From a virus, in the IMG/VR virus record IMGVR_UViG_3300023184_002113, positions 1 through 46,089 of that record: DNA of 46,089 nucleotides. The stretch is one strand, 5' to 3'. How positions within the stretch are numbered: the first letter of the stretch is position 1; every line of letters begins with the position of its first letter. Positions 1-10,840 of this stretch are shown in pieces. The notes below the pieces were generated by a model. The model was not told the origin of the DNA. It made no database searches and saw nothing but the letters and a program-made list of their open reading frames with translations. The position numbers were made by a program, and so were the translations under genes.

Positions 1-337
1 TCACAGCCGTACCACTGTTACCAGTTACATAGTAGGTTAAGTCAATACCATACGCACGACCTACCGCTGTCGTAGCTGTTACACCTAAGCTCAATGTATT
101 CGTTGAACCTATTTGTCTAATATCAACAGCATTGTTATCACCGTAGATCTTAGCTGGAGTTGTATTACTTGACCCAACACCTTGTATACCACGCACCACG
201 TTACCTGCACCTGTCTGCGTGACGTCAATCGTACTATTATCACCACTTTGATCGATGTAGATGCTGTTGTCTGCTGCAAACGCTGTTATCGCAAACAAAG
301 CTAGCATCACTGCCCATAGTTTAATGTAATTGTACAT
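1..337 (-). CDS. Curlin-like secreted amyloid protein (partial, C-terminus beyond window)
   Basis: The first 112 residues are visible and the frame is open at the window edge. A Sec signal peptide of about 20 residues ends near AFAA, followed by two curlin-type repeats in which N-x(5)-Q-x-G-x(2)-N spacing recurs (QSGDNS, QTGAGN, then RQIGSTN). CsgA/CsgB proteins consist of such repeats and polymerise on the cell surface after export through CsgG. The ATG at 337 is preceded by AAGGAG at a good distance and overlaps the end of csgG by 17 nt, so the three genes are translationally coupled. Whether it is a nucleator (CsgB-like) or the main subunit (CsgA-like) cannot be told from the fragment. Confidence 0.75.
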   Translation of the reverse strand, partial: MYNYIKLWAVMLALFAITAFAADNSIYIDQSGDNSTIDVTQTGAGNVVRGIQGVGSSNTTPAKIYGDNNAVDIRQIGSTNTLSLGVTATTAVGRAYGIDLTYYVTGNSGTAV

Positions 338-1337
338 TTACTTGCTCCTTGGCCCGGGGGCCTTTAACTGAAGGTTGTTCTATATCAGAGACCTTCTCTT
401 TCTTCTTTACTGCTTTTGTAGTTGTCACCTTAGAAGTTTCAACTACGGTTGGGGTATCACCGCTGACAGGTTGCTGTGCTGGAGTAGTTTTGATCTCTAC
501 TGGGGTAGGAGCCGAGGGAGTGTCTATCCTAGGTCCAGCACCAACAATGTCATCAGTTTTGAAGTCCCATACACCTTTGAGCTGACCTTCTTTGATCAGT
601 TCAACGACAGCCGCTTCAACTGCTGCCTTGACCGCTTGCGTTCCGGGCTCATTTATAGTGAGTCCTGCTTCTAGTTCAAACGCCTGCGTACCATCTTTGA
701 TAAATTTCAGCATGGCCAAACTATCACTGGTGCTGTAAATTGTTTTCTGCACGTTTACACTGGCTAATACTTTACCTGTGTTAACGCTGATTAATCTCAA
801 ACTTACTGTTACTATATCTTCACTGTATTGTGTCTGTGGACCAATACCTAGTATACGTGCGGCAAAGCCACCGCTCTTAGTACTACTATCATATCCTGTG
901 ATACCACCCTCTACGATCACCCCAGCAAACATCATTGGGCTTAGTGGTTTAGCGTTGGCACCATCATAGGCTTCACGCATCTGACGTATAAGTTGACGTT
1001 CTTTAGTTAGGCTGTCAATGCCCACACGTTCAACTACCACAAACCATTGACCTCGACCTACATCGCTCAAGGCTTTGATAAGGAATGCTTCTGCACCCTG
1101 TGTAACCGCTGTTGACAAGTTAGCGATACTGGCACTAGGACGTCGTTGTCCTGTTTTATCTAAGAAACTGTAGACCGCTACTACCACTGGGCGACCTGCC
1201 GCAGGTGGTGGAATAACGTCAAACTCTTTCTGCATCAAGTTTTTAACTTTTGTAGGCTTTTCAGGACCCGTGACCATACTTGTGGTAGCACAGCCTGTCA
1301 AGCATAACAGTAAAAATAATGTTAATAACTTTTTCAT
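321..1337 (-). CDS. csgG: CsgG-type outer-membrane curli secretion lipoprotein
   Basis: CsgG forms the nonameric outer-membrane pore that exports curlin subunits. This 338-residue protein has a lipoprotein signal with lipobox LTGC (Cys16) and the full CsgG core: the RPVVVAVYSFLDKTGQ strand, the GQWFVVVERVGI segment, VEGGITGYDS, and the SVNVQKTIYS strand-turn. The ATG at 1337 is preferred over one 42 nt upstream because it has an AGAAGG ribosome site, lies 7 nt after the csgF stop, and begins a proper lipoprotein signal. The family is usually about 277 residues; here about 70 extra residues rich in Pro, Thr and Lys follow the core. Lies between csgF and the curlin-like gene. Confidence 0.93.
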   Translation of the reverse strand: MKKLLTLFLLLCLTGCATTSMVTGPEKPTKVKNLMQKEFDVIPPPAAGRPVVVAVYSFLDKTGQRRPSASIANLSTAVTQGAEAFLIKALSDVGRGQWFVVVERVGIDSLTKERQLIRQMREAYDGANAKPLSPMMFAGVIVEGGITGYDSSTKSGGFAARILGIGPQTQYSEDIVTVSLRLISVNTGKVLASVNVQKTIYSTSDSLAMLKFIKDGTQAFELEAGLTINEPGTQAVKAAVEAAVVELIKEGQLKGVWDFKTDDIVGAGPRIDTPSAPTPVEIKTTPAQQPVSGDTPTVVETSKVTTTKAVKKKEKVSDIEQPSVKGPRAKEQVNVQLH

Positions 1338-1344
1338 AGCCTTC

Positions 1345-1794
1345 TTATTGGAATACAAATTGTCCCAATGGTACTTCAATTGTTGTAGTTGATCCTGTTG
1401 GATCTACCACTGTTAAGGTAATGCTATCTAATCCGTTCTTTTGCCAGCTGATAACACTGCCTTCAAAATTAATAGTGCCGTGATCACTACCACCTGTAGC
1501 AAACATAGCAGTTGCTACGTTTTGGCTTATCTGAGCATAGATTCTTGACTCTAAATTGTTCAAAAACTTGGCCAAATTGGTGTTTTTCTTATCGTTTGCT
1601 TCCTTATCTAAGGCCGCTTGTAGGTCTTTTTTGATTTGTTCTTTACGTGTGTGCTCTTGGTTCTCAAGAGTTAAGACGTGAGATGAGTATCCGTTGCCAT
1701 TAAAGCTAGGACTCTTGAATGAATAGTCAGGGAGAGGTTGTGCTACAGCCAGACCTGATATAGATAGAAATAGGAATGAAATACATAGTTTCAT
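1345..1794 (-). CDS. csgF: CsgF-type curli assembly factor
   Basis: CsgF is exported through CsgG, plugs into the pore with its N-terminus and couples nucleation to secretion. The 149-residue product has a cleavable signal peptide ending near LAVA, then the CsgF N-terminal motif F-x-S-P-x-F-x-G-N (SFKSPSFNGNGY), which in the E. coli protein contacts CsgG. The C-terminal half carries the LTVVDPTGSTTTIEVPL strand pair typical of the family. An AAGGAG site precedes the start. It is the first gene of the csgF-csgG-curlin order. No csgE or csgD homologue is seen here. Length and motif agree well with the family (E. coli CsgF is about 138 residues). Confidence 0.9.
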   Translation of the reverse strand: MKLCISFLFLSISGLAVAQPLPDYSFKSPSFNGNGYSSHVLTLENQEHTRKEQIKKDLQAALDKEANDKKNTNLAKFLNNLESRIYAQISQNVATAMFATGGSDHGTINFEGSVISWQKNGLDSITLTVVDPTGSTTTIEVPLGQFVFQ

Positions 1795-2721: not shown

Positions 2722-3179
2722 TATCGTTTACTTTCCGCTTCTGCTACACGTTTGCGAAGACTGCTGGAACTAAAACTGTGATCACGACTGTTAAAGATTA
2801 ATTTAATGTTGCGTTTGTTACAGATATCTTTACCTGTGAAATCTTTATCTTCGTATTCTATACCTAAGATACGGACATCGATAGGTAAGGTTAATAATAT
2901 GTCTTCAAGATCTTTTTCTGTATTGTAGACCACGATCTCATCTACATAGCGTGTTGCCGCTAGTTGTATTTGACGTTCTACTATACTTTGTATTGGTGCG
3001 TTCTTTTCAGGACGATCCCAGCTGGCATTATTTTGTAATCCAGCGATAAGATAATCACAGTGATTTTTAGCTTCACTTAGCATAGCAACATGACCAGCAT
3101 GCAGCATATCAAACTGGCTGGCTGTAAATCCTATGCGTAGGCCCTGTGCTTTTAATTCCTGGACTTTATTAAATATCAT
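2721..3179 (-). CDS. Cytidylyltransferase-like nucleotidyltransferase
   Basis: The N-terminus GFTASQFDMLHAGHVAML carries the H-x-G-H active-site motif of the TagD/RfaE-C/CoaD nucleotidyltransferase superfamily. Near the end SSSSLRKRV resembles the ISTT/ISSS-x-hydrophobic-R signature. The 152-residue length fits a stand-alone glycerol-3-phosphate or glycero-manno-heptose cytidylyltransferase domain. Such enzymes transfer CMP or AMP to a sugar or glycerol phosphate. The substrate cannot be read from the sequence; change of cell-surface sugar or a nucleotide/cofactor substrate are both possible. It overlaps the clpS end by 4 nt, so it is in the clpS transcript. Confidence 0.78.
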   Translation of the reverse strand: MIFNKVQELKAQGLRIGFTASQFDMLHAGHVAMLSEAKNHCDYLIAGLQNNASWDRPEKNAPIQSIVERQIQLAATRYVDEIVVYNTEKDLEDILLTLPIDVRILGIEYEDKDFTGKDICNKRNIKLIFNSRDHSFSSSSLRKRVAEAESKR

Positions 3180-3508
3180 TCTACTGGTTCTAGTTTAACC
3201 TGTAATGGAAATCCATTGTTACGGGCCAGTTGTGTTACTTCAACACCTTTTTGTTCTGCCATTTCATAAGGAAGTATCGCTGCTGTGCCGCTGCCTTCTT
3301 CATGAATTTTCATAGTAACAGCTTGTGCTTCTTCTGGACTATGATTGAATATTTCAATAAGAGTTTGGACGACAAATTCCATGGTAGTAACGCTGTCATT
3401 GATATAGATCACGCGATACAAGGGAGGTTCTTTCAAGTTGAGATTTGGAGTAGGTTTTACTCTAGTGACCGCTTTGGTGCCCATAAATTCCTTTTCGAAT
3501 GTCGTCAT
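3176..3508 (-). CDS. clpS: ClpS-type N-end rule adaptor
   Basis: ClpS delivers N-degron substrates to ClpAP and blocks other ClpA substrates. The 110-residue protein has the canonical Y-x-V-x-x-x-N-D core (N37 D38), the TTMEFVV helix, H69 in KIHEEG, and the C-terminal hydrophobic LARNNGFPLQVKLE strand. N, D and H are the N-degron pocket residues. No Shine-Dalgarno is obvious in the 40-nt leader, which instead holds a perfect 8-bp hairpin. A sigma70-type promoter sits inside the end of the hsp20 gene upstream. A phage ClpS could redirect host Clp proteolysis. Confidence 0.92.
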   Translation of the reverse strand: MTTFEKEFMGTKAVTRVKPTPNLNLKEPPLYRVIYINDSVTTMEFVVQTLIEIFNHSPEEAQAVTMKIHEEGSGTAAILPYEMAEQKGVEVTQLARNNGFPLQVKLEPVE

Positions 3509-3525
3509 ATTTTAGTTGATTAGTG

Positions 3526-3545
3526 AGGCAGTATCGCTACTGCCT
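3526..3545 (-). other. 5'-leader hairpin of clpS with GCGA tetraloop
   Basis: A perfect 8-bp stem (AGGCAGTA with TACTGCCT) closes a four-base loop that reads GCGA, a GNRA tetraloop, on the minus-strand RNA. It begins about 3 nt after the predicted transcription start of the clpS promoter and is not followed by a T run, so a 5' stabilising hairpin is more likely than a terminator. Confidence 0.55.
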
Positions 3546-3554
3546 ACACTATTA

Positions 3555-3583
3555 ATTATACTACTTCTGAAAGGTGATTGCAA
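3555..3583 (-). promoter_or_regulatory. Sigma70-type promoter for clpS operon
   Basis: Minus strand TTGCAA, 17-bp spacer, TATAAT. The -10 is consensus and the -35 matches 5 of 6. It overlaps the hsp20 stop region and predicts a start near 3548, 40 nt before clpS. Confidence 0.65.
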
Positions 3584-4004
3584 TCTTTTTTGGCTTAGCT
3601 GACTCTGGAACGATATGTTCTAAAGTAACAGTCAAGATACCATTTTTAACTTGGGCACCTTTGACTTCTACGTTGTCTGCTAGAGCAAATGTGCGTTCAA
3701 AGTCACGGCCTGCAATACCTTGATGTAGATACTGTTGTTCCGCTTTGTTTTCCTTGTTGACTGCACCCGTAACGACTAGTTCGTTGTTGACTATCTCAAC
3801 ATCCAACTCACTTTCATCAAAGCCCGCGACCGCTACTTCGATCTTCCAGATAGTTTCTGACTCTTTGATGATGTTGTAAGGTGGATAGTTACTGGCATTT
3901 AATGTGCCAGCTGTTCGGCTGAGCTCATCAAACATGCGGTCAAATCCTACTGCAAATCTTTGGATACTTGGAATATCCAAACTGTTAATATATACTTGTT
4001 TCAT
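3561..4004 (-). CDS. Hsp20 / IbpA-type small heat-shock protein
   Basis: An alpha-crystallin-domain chaperone (147 residues) that would hold unfolded proteins for DnaK. Visible are the domain start (IKESETIWKIEVAVAGFDES), the beta-strand pair ELVVTGAV, the F-x-R-x-F strand (GRDFERTFALADNVEV) and the hallmark G-x-L-T-V-T-L near the end, followed by a short tail ending PKKIAITFQK that may supply the I-x-I anchor. An AAGGAG ribosome site precedes the start. It lies 42 bp after dnaK with no promoter between, so it is probably co-transcribed with dnaK. Confidence 0.9.
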   Translation of the reverse strand: MKQVYINSLDIPSIQRFAVGFDRMFDELSRTAGTLNASNYPPYNIIKESETIWKIEVAVAGFDESELDVEIVNNELVVTGAVNKENKAEQQYLHQGIAGRDFERTFALADNVEVKGAQVKNGILTVTLEHIVPESAKPKKIAITFQK

Positions 4005-4046
4005 AGCTTATTCTCCTTATATAAAGCAAGATTAAATCAAGGACCC

Positions 4047-5963
4047 TTATTCGGCATCCTTTTTAACTTCAGTGAACTCAGCATCTACTACATCGCTGGG
4101 TTTTTCTGAATTCTGTTCAGCACCTGGTTGCACTTCTGCTTTGGCAGCTTCAGCAGCCTGATATGCTTTGAATAGTGGTTCTGCGGCTTTAGTCAATGCT
4201 TCTACTGCATCGGTGATAGCAGGAATGTCATCACCTTCGATAGCAGTTTCGACTGCCTTGACTGCTGTCTCGATAGCTGTCTTTTCATCTGCTGAGATCT
4301 TATCACCCAGATCTTTTAGTGTCTTGTTAACTTGATAAACTTGACTGTCAGCATTATTACGACTATCTACCAAGGCACGTTGTTTCTTATCAGCTTCGGC
4401 GTTGGCTTCAGCTTCTTCAACCATCTTAGCGATTTCGTCTTCACTCAGACCACTATTGGCTTTGATAGTGACTTTGTTTTCTTTACCAGTGTTTTTGTCC
4501 TTAGCTGAGACTTTTAAGATACCGTTGGCATCGATGTCAAGTGTGATCTCAATAGCTGGGATACCACGTGGTGCTGGAGCAATACCTTCTAGATTAAACT
4601 CACCTAGTTTCTTGTTGTCTTTAACAAACTCACGTTCTCCCTGTGCGATATTGACTGTTACCGCAGGTTGATTGTCCTCTGCTGTTGAGAATGTTTGACT
4701 AACTTTAGTAGGGATAGTCGTGTTTTTCTTGATAAGTTTAGTAAACACACCACCCATGGTTTCGATACCTAGACTCAATGGAGTAACGTCTAATAGTAAT
4801 ACGTCAGTCTTATCACCAGCAAGTACCGCACCTTGGATGGCCGCGCCAACTGCCACTGCTTCATCTGGGTTGACATCTTTACGTGGTGCTTTGCCAAATA
4901 GTTGTTCAACTGCTTCTTGCACCTTAGGCATACGTGTCTGACCACCAACTAGGATAACATCACTGATATCGTCTGGTGATACACCTGCATCTTTTAATGC
5001 TACCTTGCATGGCTCAATACTGCGTGTGATCAAGTCTTCAACCAGTGCTTCGAACTTAGCACGACTGATAGTCACGTTCAAGTGTTTAGGACCACTGGCA
5101 TCTGCTGTGATGTAAGGTAAGTTTACCGTAGTTTGATTACTGCTGGATAATTCAATTTTAGCTTTTTCAGCGGATTCTTTTAATCGTTGTAGACTCAGTT
5201 GATCTTTCTTAAGGTCAACACCTGACTCTTTCTTGAACTCATCGATGATGTAGTCCATCAAGCGTTGGTCAAAGTCTTCACCACCAAGGAATGTATCACC
5301 ATTGGTTGACAATACTTCAAATTGGAACTCACCATCTAGGTTGGCAATCTCGATAATACTCACGTCAAACGTGCCACCACCTAGGTCGTATACAGCGATC
5401 TTTTTATCTTTCTTATCAGCTTTGTCCATGCCAAATGCCAGTGCGGCCGCTGTTGGCTCATTGATGATACGCAATACTTCTAAGCCTGCGATCTTACCTG
5501 CATCTTTGGTCGCTTGACGTTGTGCATCGTTGAAGTAAGCTGGAACTGTGATAACTGCCTGTGAGACTTCGTAGCCGAGATAGTCTTCAGCAGTCTTTTT
5601 CATCTTGATCAATACTTCTGCTGAGATCTGTGGTGGTGCTAGTTCTCGATCATCAATCTTGACCCAAGCATCACCGTTTTTGTTTTTAACGATCTCAAAT
5701 GGCATTAGATCGATGTCTTTCTGCACTTCTTTTTCGTCAAACTTACGACCAATTAGTCGTTTAGCCGCATAGACTGTTTTCTTTGGATTAGTTACTGCTT
5801 GACGTTTGGCTGGTGCACCAACTAGGATCTCATCGCCATAGGCAACGATACTAGGTGTAGTTCTAGCACCTTCATTGTTTTCAATTACTTTGGGTTTGTT
5901 GTTTTCTAGGATAGCCACGCATGAGTTTGTGGTTCCTAAGTCGATACCGATGATCTTAGACAT
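4047..5963 (-). CDS. dnaK: Full-length DnaK (Hsp70) chaperone
   Basis: Complete 638-residue Hsp70. The ATPase domain has phosphate-1 [10 protein letters not shown] at residue 5, phosphate-2 [12 protein letters not shown] near 190-200 and the adenosine motif [12 protein letters not shown]; the interdomain linker is [12 protein letters not shown]; the substrate domain and helical lid are intact and the C-terminus keeps an acidic tail ([14 protein letters not shown]). It is host-sized and appears functional. Segments such as [11 protein letters not shown] and KKTAEDYLG look betaproteobacterial, pointing to capture from such a host. No dnaJ or grpE is in the window, so host co-chaperones would be needed. 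The leader is about 80 nt with AAGGAG before the ATG. Confidence 0.98.
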
Positions 5964-6049: not shown

Positions 6050-6078
6050 ATTATATACTAATATAACTTCTTGGGCAA
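6050..6078 (-). promoter_or_regulatory. Sigma70-type promoter for dnaK-hsp20
   Basis: Minus strand TTGCCC, 17-bp spacer, TATAAT; the -35 is weaker than in neighbouring promoters. It lies across the end of the bS21 gene and predicts a start near 6043, giving an 80-nt leader. Confidence 0.5.
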
Positions 6079-6291
6079 CTGTTGGCTCTGTAGTTTCTTT
6101 TGCCAACGGTTTTTGGCTGCTGATGCTTTACGTTTACGTTTGGTAGTAGGTTTTTCGTAGTGTTCACGACCACGCATATCTAATAATAGTCCGCTGTCCT
6201 GTATCTTTTTCTTAAACTTACGCATGGCCTGTTCGACGTTGTCGTTCTTAACGTAGACAGTGCTGCCTTTCAATGAATTTTCAAATGCCAT
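6058..6291 (-). CDS. rpsU: Ribosomal protein bS21
   Basis: A 77-residue bS21 homologue. It has the typical VKNDNVEQAMRKFKKK helix, the L-L-x-x-x-R-x-R-E-x-Y-E-K-P segment (DMRGREHYEKPTTKRKRK) and a basic C-terminal tail (KNRWQKKLQSQQ). bS21 sits at the 30S platform next to the anti-Shine-Dalgarno end of 16S rRNA. Phage bS21 genes are established in aquatic phages and are thought to replace the host protein. It has its own near-consensus promoter and a ribosome site (AAGGAC). Length and basic character match cellular bS21 (about 70 residues). Confidence 0.95.
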   Translation of the reverse strand: MAFENSLKGSTVYVKNDNVEQAMRKFKKKIQDSGLLLDMRGREHYEKPTTKRKRKASAAKNRWQKKLQSQQLPKKLY

Positions 6292-6330: not shown

Positions 6331-6360
6331 ATTATAACATGATTTATTCAACTAGGTCAA
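6331..6360 (-). promoter_or_regulatory. Strong extended -10 sigma70-type promoter for rpsU
   Basis: Minus strand TTGACC, 18-bp spacer, TGTTATAAT: consensus -10 with a TGN extension. Predicted start near 6324 leaves a 33-nt leader. One of the best promoters in the window, consistent with high early expression of bS21. Confidence 0.75.
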
Positions 6361-6685
6361 CCGTAGTTTGTTCAATTTTTTGGAAATACTCTAAAGGATT
6401 GAAGAATTCCTGTCCAAATCCATAGCGAATACCACTGGTAACTTTGACTTGGCTTGAATCATTGATCAAGTAAGCATCAGCTGAATGGCCCAGATGATTC
6501 AACCATTCCAAATCATACATGTCACCTCTATAGGTATAGACATCAAAATTGGTCTTACTAGTTTTAAGGAATACTAACAGATCACCAAAATCTTTGGTAT
6601 CACAGTCTATCAATACCACTGTGTGATGATCAGTTTTTTCTACTGTGCTGGGATAGGTTATTAGCCTATTGTTTTGATTTTCCAT
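6344..6685 (-). CDS. Phage protein of unknown function (113 aa)
   Basis: I do not recognise the family. The 113-residue product has alternating strands and helices (TVVLIDCDTKDFGDLLVFL, FDVYTYRGDMYDLEWLNHL) resembling a small Rossmann-like fold, but without catalytic motifs I can name. Its start lies within the end of the preceding structural gene (20-nt overlap), placing it at the tail of the late transcript that carries the frameshifted membrane protein. The rpsU promoter begins inside its 3' end. Confidence 0.6.
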   Translation of the reverse strand: MENQNNRLITYPSTVEKTDHHTVVLIDCDTKDFGDLLVFLKTSKTNFDVYTYRGDMYDLEWLNHLGHSADAYLINDSSQVKVTSGIRYGFGQEFFNPLEYFQKIEQTTVDLVE

Positions 6686-8365
6686 TTAAATACCTCGATA
6701 TTTGTTCACGTTCAACATCTGTGATCAGATCAACATCATACTCACCCGTGTCAATCTTCTCTATTAGATGTTGTATATATGCTTGATCGTAGGCAAAACT
6801 GTCAGTCTTGGTTTTGTCTACTTCTATCCATTTCTTTTCATTCCATTTAAACAGTTTACTGGGCAGATAATCTACACGTAGATACATGTCACCTTTGACT
6901 GGAGTTACAGGAAAACTAGTGCCAAAGCCTGCGTTCACTGGGGCGGCATCTACAGCACCGATACTGAAATCCGGTATCACCATTTGGTTTTCGTGTATGA
7001 CCACGGCTCTGGGTGTTGGGTTTATGGGTTCTTCATCTGTGGCAGGTGCCTGGCGGCCACGTATAGGTGGAGGGTCAGAGTGAGGAAGTTCAGCTGGGGG
7101 TTCTGGTTCTGTAGGAGGCGGAGCAACTTCAACGATTCTATCAACAAATACTTCTTTAATAACTTCGACTGGGCGGTCAACAAATACCTCTTTGATGACT
7201 TCAACAGGTTTTTCTACTATGACTTCTTTGACGACTTCAACTGGCCTGTCAATAAAAACCTCTTTAACAACTTCAACAGGTCTATCAACAAATACTTCTT
7301 TGATTATTTCTTTAGGAGGTTGCTGAAGGAGTTCACTAACTTTTTTTTTAGAGTTTCAGCTGTGGCTTTAACTGCCTCTAGTTCGCGTGTGAGTGTGGTA
7401 TTTTTTGTTTGTTCTTCTGCGATCTGTTGATCAGCTAGTTCTTGTATTTTATCTAACTGTGTATCAGTCAACGGACCATCATCTGGTTCATACCTAGGTT
7501 CAGGTCTTGGATCAAATTCTTCTGAAACCGGGGGTAGATCATTCCATTCAGGCCATGCTTCGCTATCTGGTTGCCAAACTTGGCTCCACCCTTGTTTCTT
7601 TTTCTTATCTTCACGTGCCCATTCAAATGTTTGATCTGCGGCAAGTATTAATACCAATGCTAGGGGATCAAATACTAGAACGATTAATATGATAACCCAA
7701 CGCACTGCTTTTTCTAATATGTTAGCATCTGGATTGTCACCGTAGATAAGTGCGGCGATATATTTGATAGGTCCGACTTCTGCTTCTACTTTACGTGCTT
7801 GGCTAGCTATAGGTGCACGTTGTTCTTGTAGTGCTGAAATCTTTTTCTGTGCGGAGGAAATTTCGTTTTGGAGATTGGTTCTCTCTTTGGCTTGTGTTCT
7901 ACGGATTTGGACTGCACGTTCTGCTCCTCGATCATCTGTGGTACGACTTAGTTTCTCATCAACCTGTGCGTCCATCTGCTTTAGAGCTCGACGGGCCGCT
8001 TCGATATTGTCACGCTCGGTCTTGATCTTGTCATCAAATATCTGAACTTGACTGCTGATATCGCCTGCTGGTACTGCTTGATCTAGATGTGCTTTTGATA
8101 GGAATCCAAAGATACCCATGCTGGTAATCAACATAAGGATACCAATAGCTGGAACTAGATATAGTTTGAACTGGACTGCGACTCGATCCCAATACTTGTG
8201 TAGCCAAACTGTGGTGATAACTTTACCAAGTTCTAGCACACTGCCCATGATAACTATGGGCCAGAATGCCGCGGCGAATATAGCAGTCAGGCCCGCGATA
8301 CTATAGAAAGCGGCTGTTAAGGATATTGTCAAGGCGACTGCCAGTAATAGGTAACCAAAAAGCAT
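6666..8365 (-). CDS. Virion-type membrane/coiled-coil protein, probably -1 frameshift fusion (342 + 224 aa)
   Basis: The zero-frame part (8365-7304, 353 aa) has two N-terminal membrane segments (about 4-24, 27-46), a third near 72-90, a long coiled coil (about 110-195) and a fourth segment (WVIILIVLVFDPLALVLIL). It ends 11 codons after a run of nine A then G. A second open frame in the -1 register starts exactly at that run and continues to 6666 with no start codon and ribosome site of its own. It holds five 12-residue repeats (type VKEVFVDRPVEV), a Pro-rich linker and a C-terminal domain with GDMYLRVDYLPSKLFKW. Slippage on A-AAA-AAG would yield 566 residues. A transcriptional slip, or a one-base homopolymer error, would give the same fusion. 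Confidence 0.75.
7125..7304 (-). repeat. Five 36-bp coding repeats (12-aa K-E-V-x-V-x-x-P-V-E-V units)
   Basis: Five successive 36-bp units encode (I/V)KEVFVDRPVEV-type dodecapeptides, diverged mostly at third positions, so the protein repeat is selected. They lie just downstream of the slippery run and are only translated if the frame shifts. Confidence 0.8.
7340..7349 (-). other. Candidate -1 frameshift site (A9-G)
   Basis: On the minus strand CTA-AAA-AAA-AAG-TTA contains A-AAA-AAG, the dnaX-type slippery heptamer. A one-base backward slip after the AAG at 7342-7340 continues with GTT-AGT-GAA into the long -1 frame. I see no convincing downstream hairpin or upstream Shine-Dalgarno stimulator, so RNA polymerase slippage on nine A is an equal candidate. 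Confidence 0.6.
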
Positions 8366-10265: not shown

Positions 10266-10292
10266 TTGTTAAATTCCTTGGTATATTTAAGT

Positions 10293-10300
10293 TATTTATC
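10293..10300 (-). promoter_or_regulatory. T4-type late promoter (GATAAATA)
   Basis: Minus strand GATAAATA matches the T4 late consensus TATAAATA at 7 of 8. With the T4 geometry the start is near 10287, 22 nt before the gene at 10265. Confidence 0.55.
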
Positions 10301-10305
10301 TTAGT

Positions 10306-10581
10306 TTACAGAGAACAGCTAGAACTAGCACCGCCACTTTGTTCAGATACGGTAACATAACCTGGGCTATCAACTGCTAGAACTGCAACACGGCTGCATT
10401 TAACAGGCAAGCGTAGATCGCGTGTTTGCCCAGCCATCAATAGTGCGCAACGGTCTGTGGCCACAGGGTTTTCGCCCACGGTCCAATACACAGTGACTTC
10501 AGTGTGTATGCTTATGGGTCCTTTCTGTAGGACTGGTGTGGTTTGGCTAACGTCGTTAGCTGATATTGAGTAGCTGGCCAT
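10306..10581 (-). CDS. Small beta-rich putative virion protein, paralogue of the next gene
   Basis: The 91-residue product MASYSISANDV... carries the shared W-T-V-G-E-N-P-V-A and C-A-L-L-M-A-G-Q-T-R-D-L segments of the downstream paralogue and ends in a Ser/Cys-rich tail. The ATG at 10581 is chosen over an in-frame TTG 18 nt upstream, because the upstream codons coincide with a perfect late promoter TATAAATA (10594-10587). The predicted +1 is the A of the ATG, so the mRNA may be leaderless; no Shine-Dalgarno is present. Confidence 0.6.
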   Translation of the reverse strand: MASYSISANDVSQTTPVLQKGPISIHTEVTVYWTVGENPVATDRCALLMAGQTRDLRLPVKCSRVAVLAVDSPGYVTVSEQSGGASSSCSL

Positions 10582-10586
10582 ATAGA

Positions 10587-10594
10587 TATTTATA
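10587..10594 (-). promoter_or_regulatory. Perfect T4-type late promoter (TATAAATA)
   Basis: Exact match to the T4 late promoter on the minus strand, directly downstream of a terminator hairpin. T4 geometry (-13 to -6) puts +1 exactly at 10581, the first base of the gene. Confidence 0.65.
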
Positions 10595-10604
10595 GCCAAG
10601 AGAA

Positions 10605-10622
10605 AGGGCTCTTACGAGCCCT
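10605..10622 (-). terminator. Terminator-like hairpin ending the early small-gene transcript
   Basis: Perfect 7-bp stem AGGGCTC/GAGCCCT with a GTAA (GNRA) loop on the minus-strand RNA, followed by TTCTCTT. It lies 6 nt after the stop of the gene at 10628-10840 and just before a late promoter, so it probably insulates early from late transcription. Confidence 0.6.
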
Positions 10623-10627
10623 GGATA

Positions 10628-10840
10628 TTAGATACTTTTCAGCGTGTGCTCTGTGATCTTATGTGAGATCATATAGGGTATGCTGAGCCACGGCCATTCG
10701 AGTTCAAATGGGCAACCGTTCTTACCCCAGTTGTTTTTCTTAAGGAAGTGTCTGTAGGCTTTAAGATCCTCAGGATTCTTTGGATCAAAGACTCGCTTGG
10801 CTGGGAACCTACCACGCATCGAAAACAGCGTTGTCATCAT
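10628..10840 (-). CDS. Small early protein of unknown function (70 aa)
   Basis: Unrecognised 70-residue basic protein (MMTTLFSMRGRFPAKRVFDPKNPEDLKAY is split by the motif F-D-P-K-N-P-E-D-L). A strong AAGGAGC site precedes the first ATG, and the start overlaps the upstream gene's stop by 4 nt. It is the last gene of the transcript from the consensus promoter at 11067-11095 and ends at a hairpin terminator, so it is probably an early host-takeover protein; this is inferred only from context. Confidence 0.55.
   Translation of the reverse strand: MMTTLFSMRGRFPAKRVFDPKNPEDLKAYRHFLKKNNWGKNGCPFELEWPWLSIPYMISHKITEHTLKSI

Follow-up and report, generated by a model that had tools for sequence, protein, structure and literature searches.

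What does a phage gene make when its reading frame closes eleven codons after a run of nine adenines and a long second frame, with no start codon of its own, opens at that very run? The window, a stretch of 46,089 nucleotides from a 46-kb virus record (G000), holds such a gene on its minus strand, with the following parts:

7304..8365, minus strand: zero-frame open reading frame with ATG start, the putative short isoform, 353 aa; four predicted membrane helices, a periplasmic coiled-coil hairpin, a cytosolic linker and a short basic tail (helices from the AlphaFold2 model of L030, topology from the positive-inside rule; weak DUF4407 match)
7356..7358, minus strand: TGA that blocks the -1 (long) frame, six bases 5' of the run
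7340..7351, minus strand: candidate slippage site CTAAAAAAAAAG, nine A at 7349-7341 with a capping G at 7340
7304..7339, minus strand: dual-coding overlap, the short tail LVNSFSNLLKK and its stop in the zero frame, the beginning of the extension in the -1 frame (codon-position test)
6666..7340, minus strand: extension of the putative long isoform in the -1 frame, 224 aa and stop, with homology to the C-terminus that 57 relatives read in frame
7125..7301, minus strand: five 12-residue repeats, KEV(F/I)(V/I)(D/E)(R/K)(P/I)VEV(V/I/A), as read from the -1 translation
6669..6935, minus strand: conserved C-terminal domain, GFGTxFPxxPxKGDMYLRVDYLPSxLYKWNxxKWIEVDK...EKIDxGEYDxDLLTDxExEQI, from the alignment and folded in two models
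6344..6685, minus strand: following gene of 113 aa; its ATG lies inside the -1 frame, giving an overlap of 20 bases with the end of that frame

The split gene and its product

The initial annotation had described this arrangement from the window alone, and its coordinates and frames are confirmed. The 353-residue frame continues past the run for the eleven sense codons LVNSFSNLLKK and ends at a TAA (7306-7304), while the -1 frame, which lacks ATG, GTG and TTG from its TGA to the run, carries the repeats and the conserved domain. Joined by a -1 shift at the run, 342 and 224 residues would make a protein of 566, with the junction LKKKVSELLQQPPK. The heptamer A_AAA_AAG (7346-7340) lies in phase with the zero-frame codons CTA AAA AAA AAG (7351-7340). 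The repeat has the consensus KEVFVDRPVEVx over its five copies in the window; copy number differs between relatives, and a coiled-coil type takes its place in L004-L006, L008, L015 and L017. A gene of similar pattern to the 113-aa neighbor also lies 3' of the membrane gene in distant relatives, as judged by eye.

Judged by its sequence, the protein is a DUF4407-like inner-membrane protein. The match to DUF4407 (PF14362) is partial and below the curated cut-off (20.9 bits against 31.3; best relative E 4.6e-6), spanning the coiled coil and the last membrane helix in 22 of 38 relatives; the tails described here are phage-specific, unlike those of that family. The AlphaFold2 model of the in-frame relative L030 (pTM 0.43) places helices at residues 2-27, 34-57, 64-81 and 216-256, with a long antiparallel helical hairpin at 84-208, beyond which come a disordered linker and, at the C-terminus, a small folded domain. 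Taken with the positive-inside rule, this model suggests that the hairpin is periplasmic and the two tails cytosolic. The initial annotation had called the protein a virion-type membrane protein; the membrane part of this designation stands with the DUF4407-like N-terminal portion, whereas the virion part is not supported beyond a match of 46 residues between the C-terminal domain and phrog_11591 (virion structural protein), found in 27 of 27 relatives and covering only positions 416-463 of 497 rather than most of the profile. A Foldseek search against the PDB with the models of L030 (pTM 0.43) and of the -1 part (pTM 0.38) gave no convincing match to a solved structure. As a working guess, the protein would serve as a membrane anchor during infection, each of its two cytosolic tails recruiting a partner of its own.

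The run and its frames among relatives

Scans of 2.9 million viral contigs yielded several hundred relatives, the best of which were fetched and read frame by frame; frame states were assigned among 153 distinct 3' ends, the remainder being other or incomplete. The clade of the window (state A, n=17) has the A9 run, a short form in the template frame and, in the -1 frame, a long form with the GFGTxFP...W(I)EVDK domain. The same domain is read in frame, with no run of nine, in 57 relatives (state H). In the second branch of the family A9 is found in 32 further sequences, 16 with the short form as template and 16 with the long form. The former (state B, n=16) have a short tail such as KTTYIVKENNNQITKTKE* and, in the -1 frame, a long form with a different C-terminal motif, YxQNxEQxxxxxW. 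The latter (state C, n=16) template the long form with this motif; their -1 frame stops after 0-3 codons, and their +1 frame encodes a tail of the same kind as that of state B, for instance SYIMKQQNQQIKKKR* or TVSWIEREGKQQVKKTKDQ*. Finally, state D (n=12) is devoid of A9 and carries the short tail followed by the C-terminal motif in one frame (SWMEHDEQGNQIKRIKENYTQNAEQSESTIWQRI). The short frame is thus +1 relative to the long frame in states A, B and C alike.

The A9 is the only run of at least nine A or T in the window, and in 620 kb of related loci we counted 14 such runs against about 35 expected under an order-2 Markov model, 13 of them in this membrane-protein gene (the loci having been chosen for holding that gene). 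Runs of eight or more are likewise rarer than expected in these phages. Run length is nine in 45 of 46 distinct family cassettes and ten in one, with no eights, in either codon phase, and codon phase differs between relatives through bases outside the run and not through its length. CTA followed by nine A is invariant in 20 of the 20 sequences listed, with G next in 19.

State A forms one clade (support 97/87 in the careful tree and SH-aLRT 94 in the quick, larger one) nested inside the H branch of plain fusions, and therefore a single gain, or a single introduction, accounts for the site within that branch. States B, C and D are interleaved in the other branch, where label B needs 7 changes, at least 4 of them forced by starred branches; recombination of 3' ends could be the source of this pattern. 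Over the 16 bases past the run, clade A and state C cassettes are identical at up to 13 positions, beyond the maximum of 12 reached in 2,000 random AAA|G-site samples, so that the A and C cassettes are probably homologous, the A cassette perhaps having been acquired by recombination.

Some members of the family deserve separate mention. In L253 (state B) the template frame ends one codon past the Lys codons of the run and the -1 frame carries both tail and motif; it is a possible intermediate between states D and B. A third group has A9 in the same linker (L177 4302, L179 2600, L181 4914, L186 4605), with a long template frame and, in the -1 frame, a 13-residue tail, (S/T)SFRVTGRIKPKQ*, SKIKVTGRIKPRR* or RYKIIGTFNRRRT*; here a short form made by slippage may have arisen independently. 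Just 5' of the run, a segment of about 45 bases (RELEAVKATAENLKKK; 7340-7390 in the window and the same place in L002-L048) is nearly invariant, and the linkers farther upstream and downstream belong to unrelated types, making the surroundings of the cassette a mosaic hot spot. Among isolated phages only 13 distant records were found (27-42% identity, e.g. Pelagibacter phage Mosig), none with the cassette, and the two relatives in genome contigs gave no firm host. In Mosig (L235, MT647606.1) a tmRNA is annotated at 10290-10628, a few genes downstream of the distant membrane-protein relative.

Selection on the two overlapping frames

If the long frame alone mattered, changes in the overlap should fall at long-frame third positions. 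We therefore counted substitutions by codon position along nearest-neighbor edges, in the overlap and in a downstream control zone that only the long frame reads; these tree edges are not fully independent. Over all states, changes in the overlap fall at short-frame third positions 92 times against 53 for the long frame (p 8e-4), while in the downstream zone the usual long-frame wobble pattern returns (101 against 259). In the clade of the window the counts are 19 (short-frame wobble) against 13 in the overlap and 67 against 186 downstream (Fisher p 2.6e-4); 19 against 13 is not significant by itself, apart from the downstream contrast. The same overlap-versus-downstream contrast gives Fisher p values of 7e-6 for state C and 2e-13 overall. 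By this comparison, both overlapping frames are shown to be under protein-level selection, and since overlap substitutions track short-frame wobble and downstream substitutions long-frame wobble, both products are probably made. Two products with a common membrane and coiled-coil part, one extended by the repeats and the domain, had been proposed from the window; this part of the proposal is supported, while the notion of the short product as a by-product is not supported, its tail being itself under selection in the codon-position test.

Two other measures were set aside. The count of synonymous and nonsynonymous changes in the overlap of the window clade was uninformative, and the codon-position contrast with its downstream control was used instead; simulations with the long-frame amino acids fixed showed that an open short frame and a closed third frame are both expected without selection, and these were not used as evidence.

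The short frame of state C is of particular value here, with selection seen on a tail that no templated frame encodes and that is accessible only through a shift at the run or close to it (a possible start codon lies a little upstream in the short frame in 7 of 16). When a profile of the state D tail, built from relatives free of A9, was compared with 16,481 open reading frames of A9-bearing loci, the five best matches were all in the +1 frame of state C, 4-10 bases past the run. Their E-values of 0.03-3.2 are individually weak, and the weight of the result lies in their shared position and frame.

Probable slippage on the run and its alternatives

We consider it probable, from the sequence comparisons, that the gene gives rise to two isoforms of an inner-membrane protein through slippage at the conserved A9, with RNA polymerase the most likely agent. 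Mechanistically, a transcript with nine A would yield the 353-residue form with its short basic tail, and one with an extra A (or two fewer) would place the ribosome in the long frame, yielding the 566-residue form with repeats and C-terminal domain. The main route would be slipping of the polymerase on the run during transcription, to which ribosomal -1 slippage on A_AAA_AAG may contribute. The two tails would then meet different cytosolic partners; the set ratio between the products suggested from the window can be inferred only, slippage efficiency in comparable cases being 15-55% (PMC4256274). In many bacteria, selection against A/T runs begins to show at a length of nine (PMC1088944). The run shows the traits of A9-class slippage, namely a conserved coding-sequence homopolymer of at least nine and indifference to codon phase and direction.

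The main competitor, which we regard as unlikely though worth serious attention, is programmed -1 ribosomal frameshifting on A_AAA_AAG, of the dnaX/IS type, with the ninth A merely a helper. A shift of dnaX type had been the first proposal for this locus, and part of it holds: both the window clade and state B carry the heptamer in phase, a G follows the run in nearly all family cassettes, and a ribosomal shift is possible. Given a stimulator, this heptamer ranks with the most efficient ones in E. coli (PMC4066793). It could also act without a stimulator, and some tailed phages shift without any (PMC5009743). The family as a whole fits less well. States A and B need -1, whereas state C keeps the same A9 yet needs +1, its second conserved frame, the -1 frame there stopping after 0-3 codons; the second product is therefore not always in the -1 frame. 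Transcripts that gain or lose one A (or gain two) account for A, B and C, while a ribosomal -1 shift explains A and B but not C. In clade A every member has CTA as the Leu codon that precedes the Lys codons; among 27 conserved Leu columns this one alone lacks synonymous variation, and the final A of this CTA lies outside the heptamer. We found no conserved downstream RNA structure, fold z-scores being inconsistent (mean about -0.9, range +2.0 to -5.4, for folds without pseudoknots), and the DNA past the overlap is of two unrelated types among relatives. Inspection of the alignment revealed no SD-like stimulator 10-14 nt upstream, the nearest AGAGG lying about 27 nt upstream and not being invariant. 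Polymerase slippage is favored because conserved RNA structure is missing, the non-heptamer A is invariant and state C needs +1.

Phase variation at the DNA level, in which replication slippage would give virions with 8, 9 or 10 A and one isoform per lineage (a contingency locus), appears very unlikely. A9 tracts can mutate, and the templated frame does differ among related phages with many changes on the tree; the nearly fixed run length and the setting of phase by bases outside the run speak against it, as does the recurrence of identical cassettes across contigs of separate metagenomes (L002/L003; L284-L288).

We find it hard to credit an assembly or sequencing artefact, or a broken gene, even if ten A would read as an in-frame fusion like that of the 57 relatives. 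The run is no chance feature, because it is kept in all 17 close relatives, which show the same split and come from many metagenomes (16 with A9, one with A10 of equal length), and it recurs in the 32 more distant sequences; moreover, both frames are under protein-level selection, and synonymous variation is the lowest in the gene at the run (0.24 against 0.575). The identical cassettes from separate metagenomes argue against an error as well. The recoding site is real and not an assembly error. An independent gene in the -1 part, started at the GTG at 7004 or the ATG/GTG codons near 6987, is the least probable reading of all: no start codon lies between upstream stop and run in any of the 17 clade members (15 of which close the -1 frame 6 nt upstream of the run), relatives have Ile in place of the internal Met, conservation of the repeat part 5' of the GTG is confined to the -1 frame, and the more distant relatives are plain in-frame fusions.

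Bacterial dnaX, IS elements and secretion genes already provide cases of RNA polymerase slippage on A9, and the tssM pair shows both directions (PMC1088944, PMC4256274). In that pair, tssM1 of Citrobacter rodentium and tssM3 of Yersinia pseudotuberculosis, slippage on A11 was shown experimentally at about 20% (PMC4256274). As here, an inner-membrane protein with an A run shortly before the stop (28 nt there, about 36 here) comes in two length variants, and slippage yields the long form in one species and the short form in the other, comparable to states A/B against C; unlike here, the run is A11 and not A9, the gene belongs to a bacterial T6SS and not to a phage, and there are two examples against about 49 in the phage family. 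Thermus thermophilus dnaX and the IS elements with A9 transcriptional slippage (PMC1088944) share nine sense-strand A, two products per gene and no need for a stimulatory structure, but the gene is different, and the alternative tail of the phages is a conserved overlapping coding sequence. The C-terminal extensions made by frameshifting in phages (Ig-like domains on coat and tail proteins, lambda G-GT; PMC5009743) resemble the present case in their minor extended form and in a shift direction that is indifferent between phages; they are ribosomal and sit in virion or tail-assembly proteins, in contrast to a membrane protein with a homopolymer run. The phage examples that we met in the open-access literature searched are ribosomal. 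In E. coli dnaX, the -1 frameshift on A_AAA_AAG is assisted by an SD-like stimulator and a stem-loop. The heptamer is likewise in phase here; neither stimulator was found, and direction differs among relatives.

We met no A9 cassette in the open-access literature searched that is conserved across a phage family, flips in phase and has an overlapping tail under its own selection; such a cassette appears to be new. On balance, and with a little less assurance than for the single gene, we lean towards a broader reading: a programmed polymerase slippage, indifferent to direction, would operate in a widespread membrane-protein family of tailed DNA phages, in which A9 feeds two separately selected C-termini and the templated isoform flips between short and long over evolution at fixed run length, the single-frame tail and motif of state D being split into two isoforms. 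If true, these phages would use polymerase slippage instead of their known ribosomal shifts. The family is also a natural experiment on recoding, with the same run and swapped frames, in which polymerase and ribosome are separable by A8 or A11 versus A10 transcripts. In practice, gene callers that read one frame truncate or split these genes, and the long isoform is missed.

Elsewhere in the window, a CsgG homologue (321-1379, minus strand; PF03783, E 3e-46) adjoins a CsgF homologue (1345-1794, minus strand; PF10614, E 6.5e-15), a phage-encoded pore pair of the curli outer-membrane type; in L035 and L046 a CsgF-like frame likewise lies just 3' of the membrane gene. A homologue of ribosomal protein bS21 (6058-6291, minus strand; PF01165, E 5e-18) is encoded two genes past the recoded one, and the region 3176-5963 (minus strand) holds a chaperone and proteostasis set comprising ClpS, Hsp20 and a 638-aa DnaK-like protein, the latter recognized by sequence.
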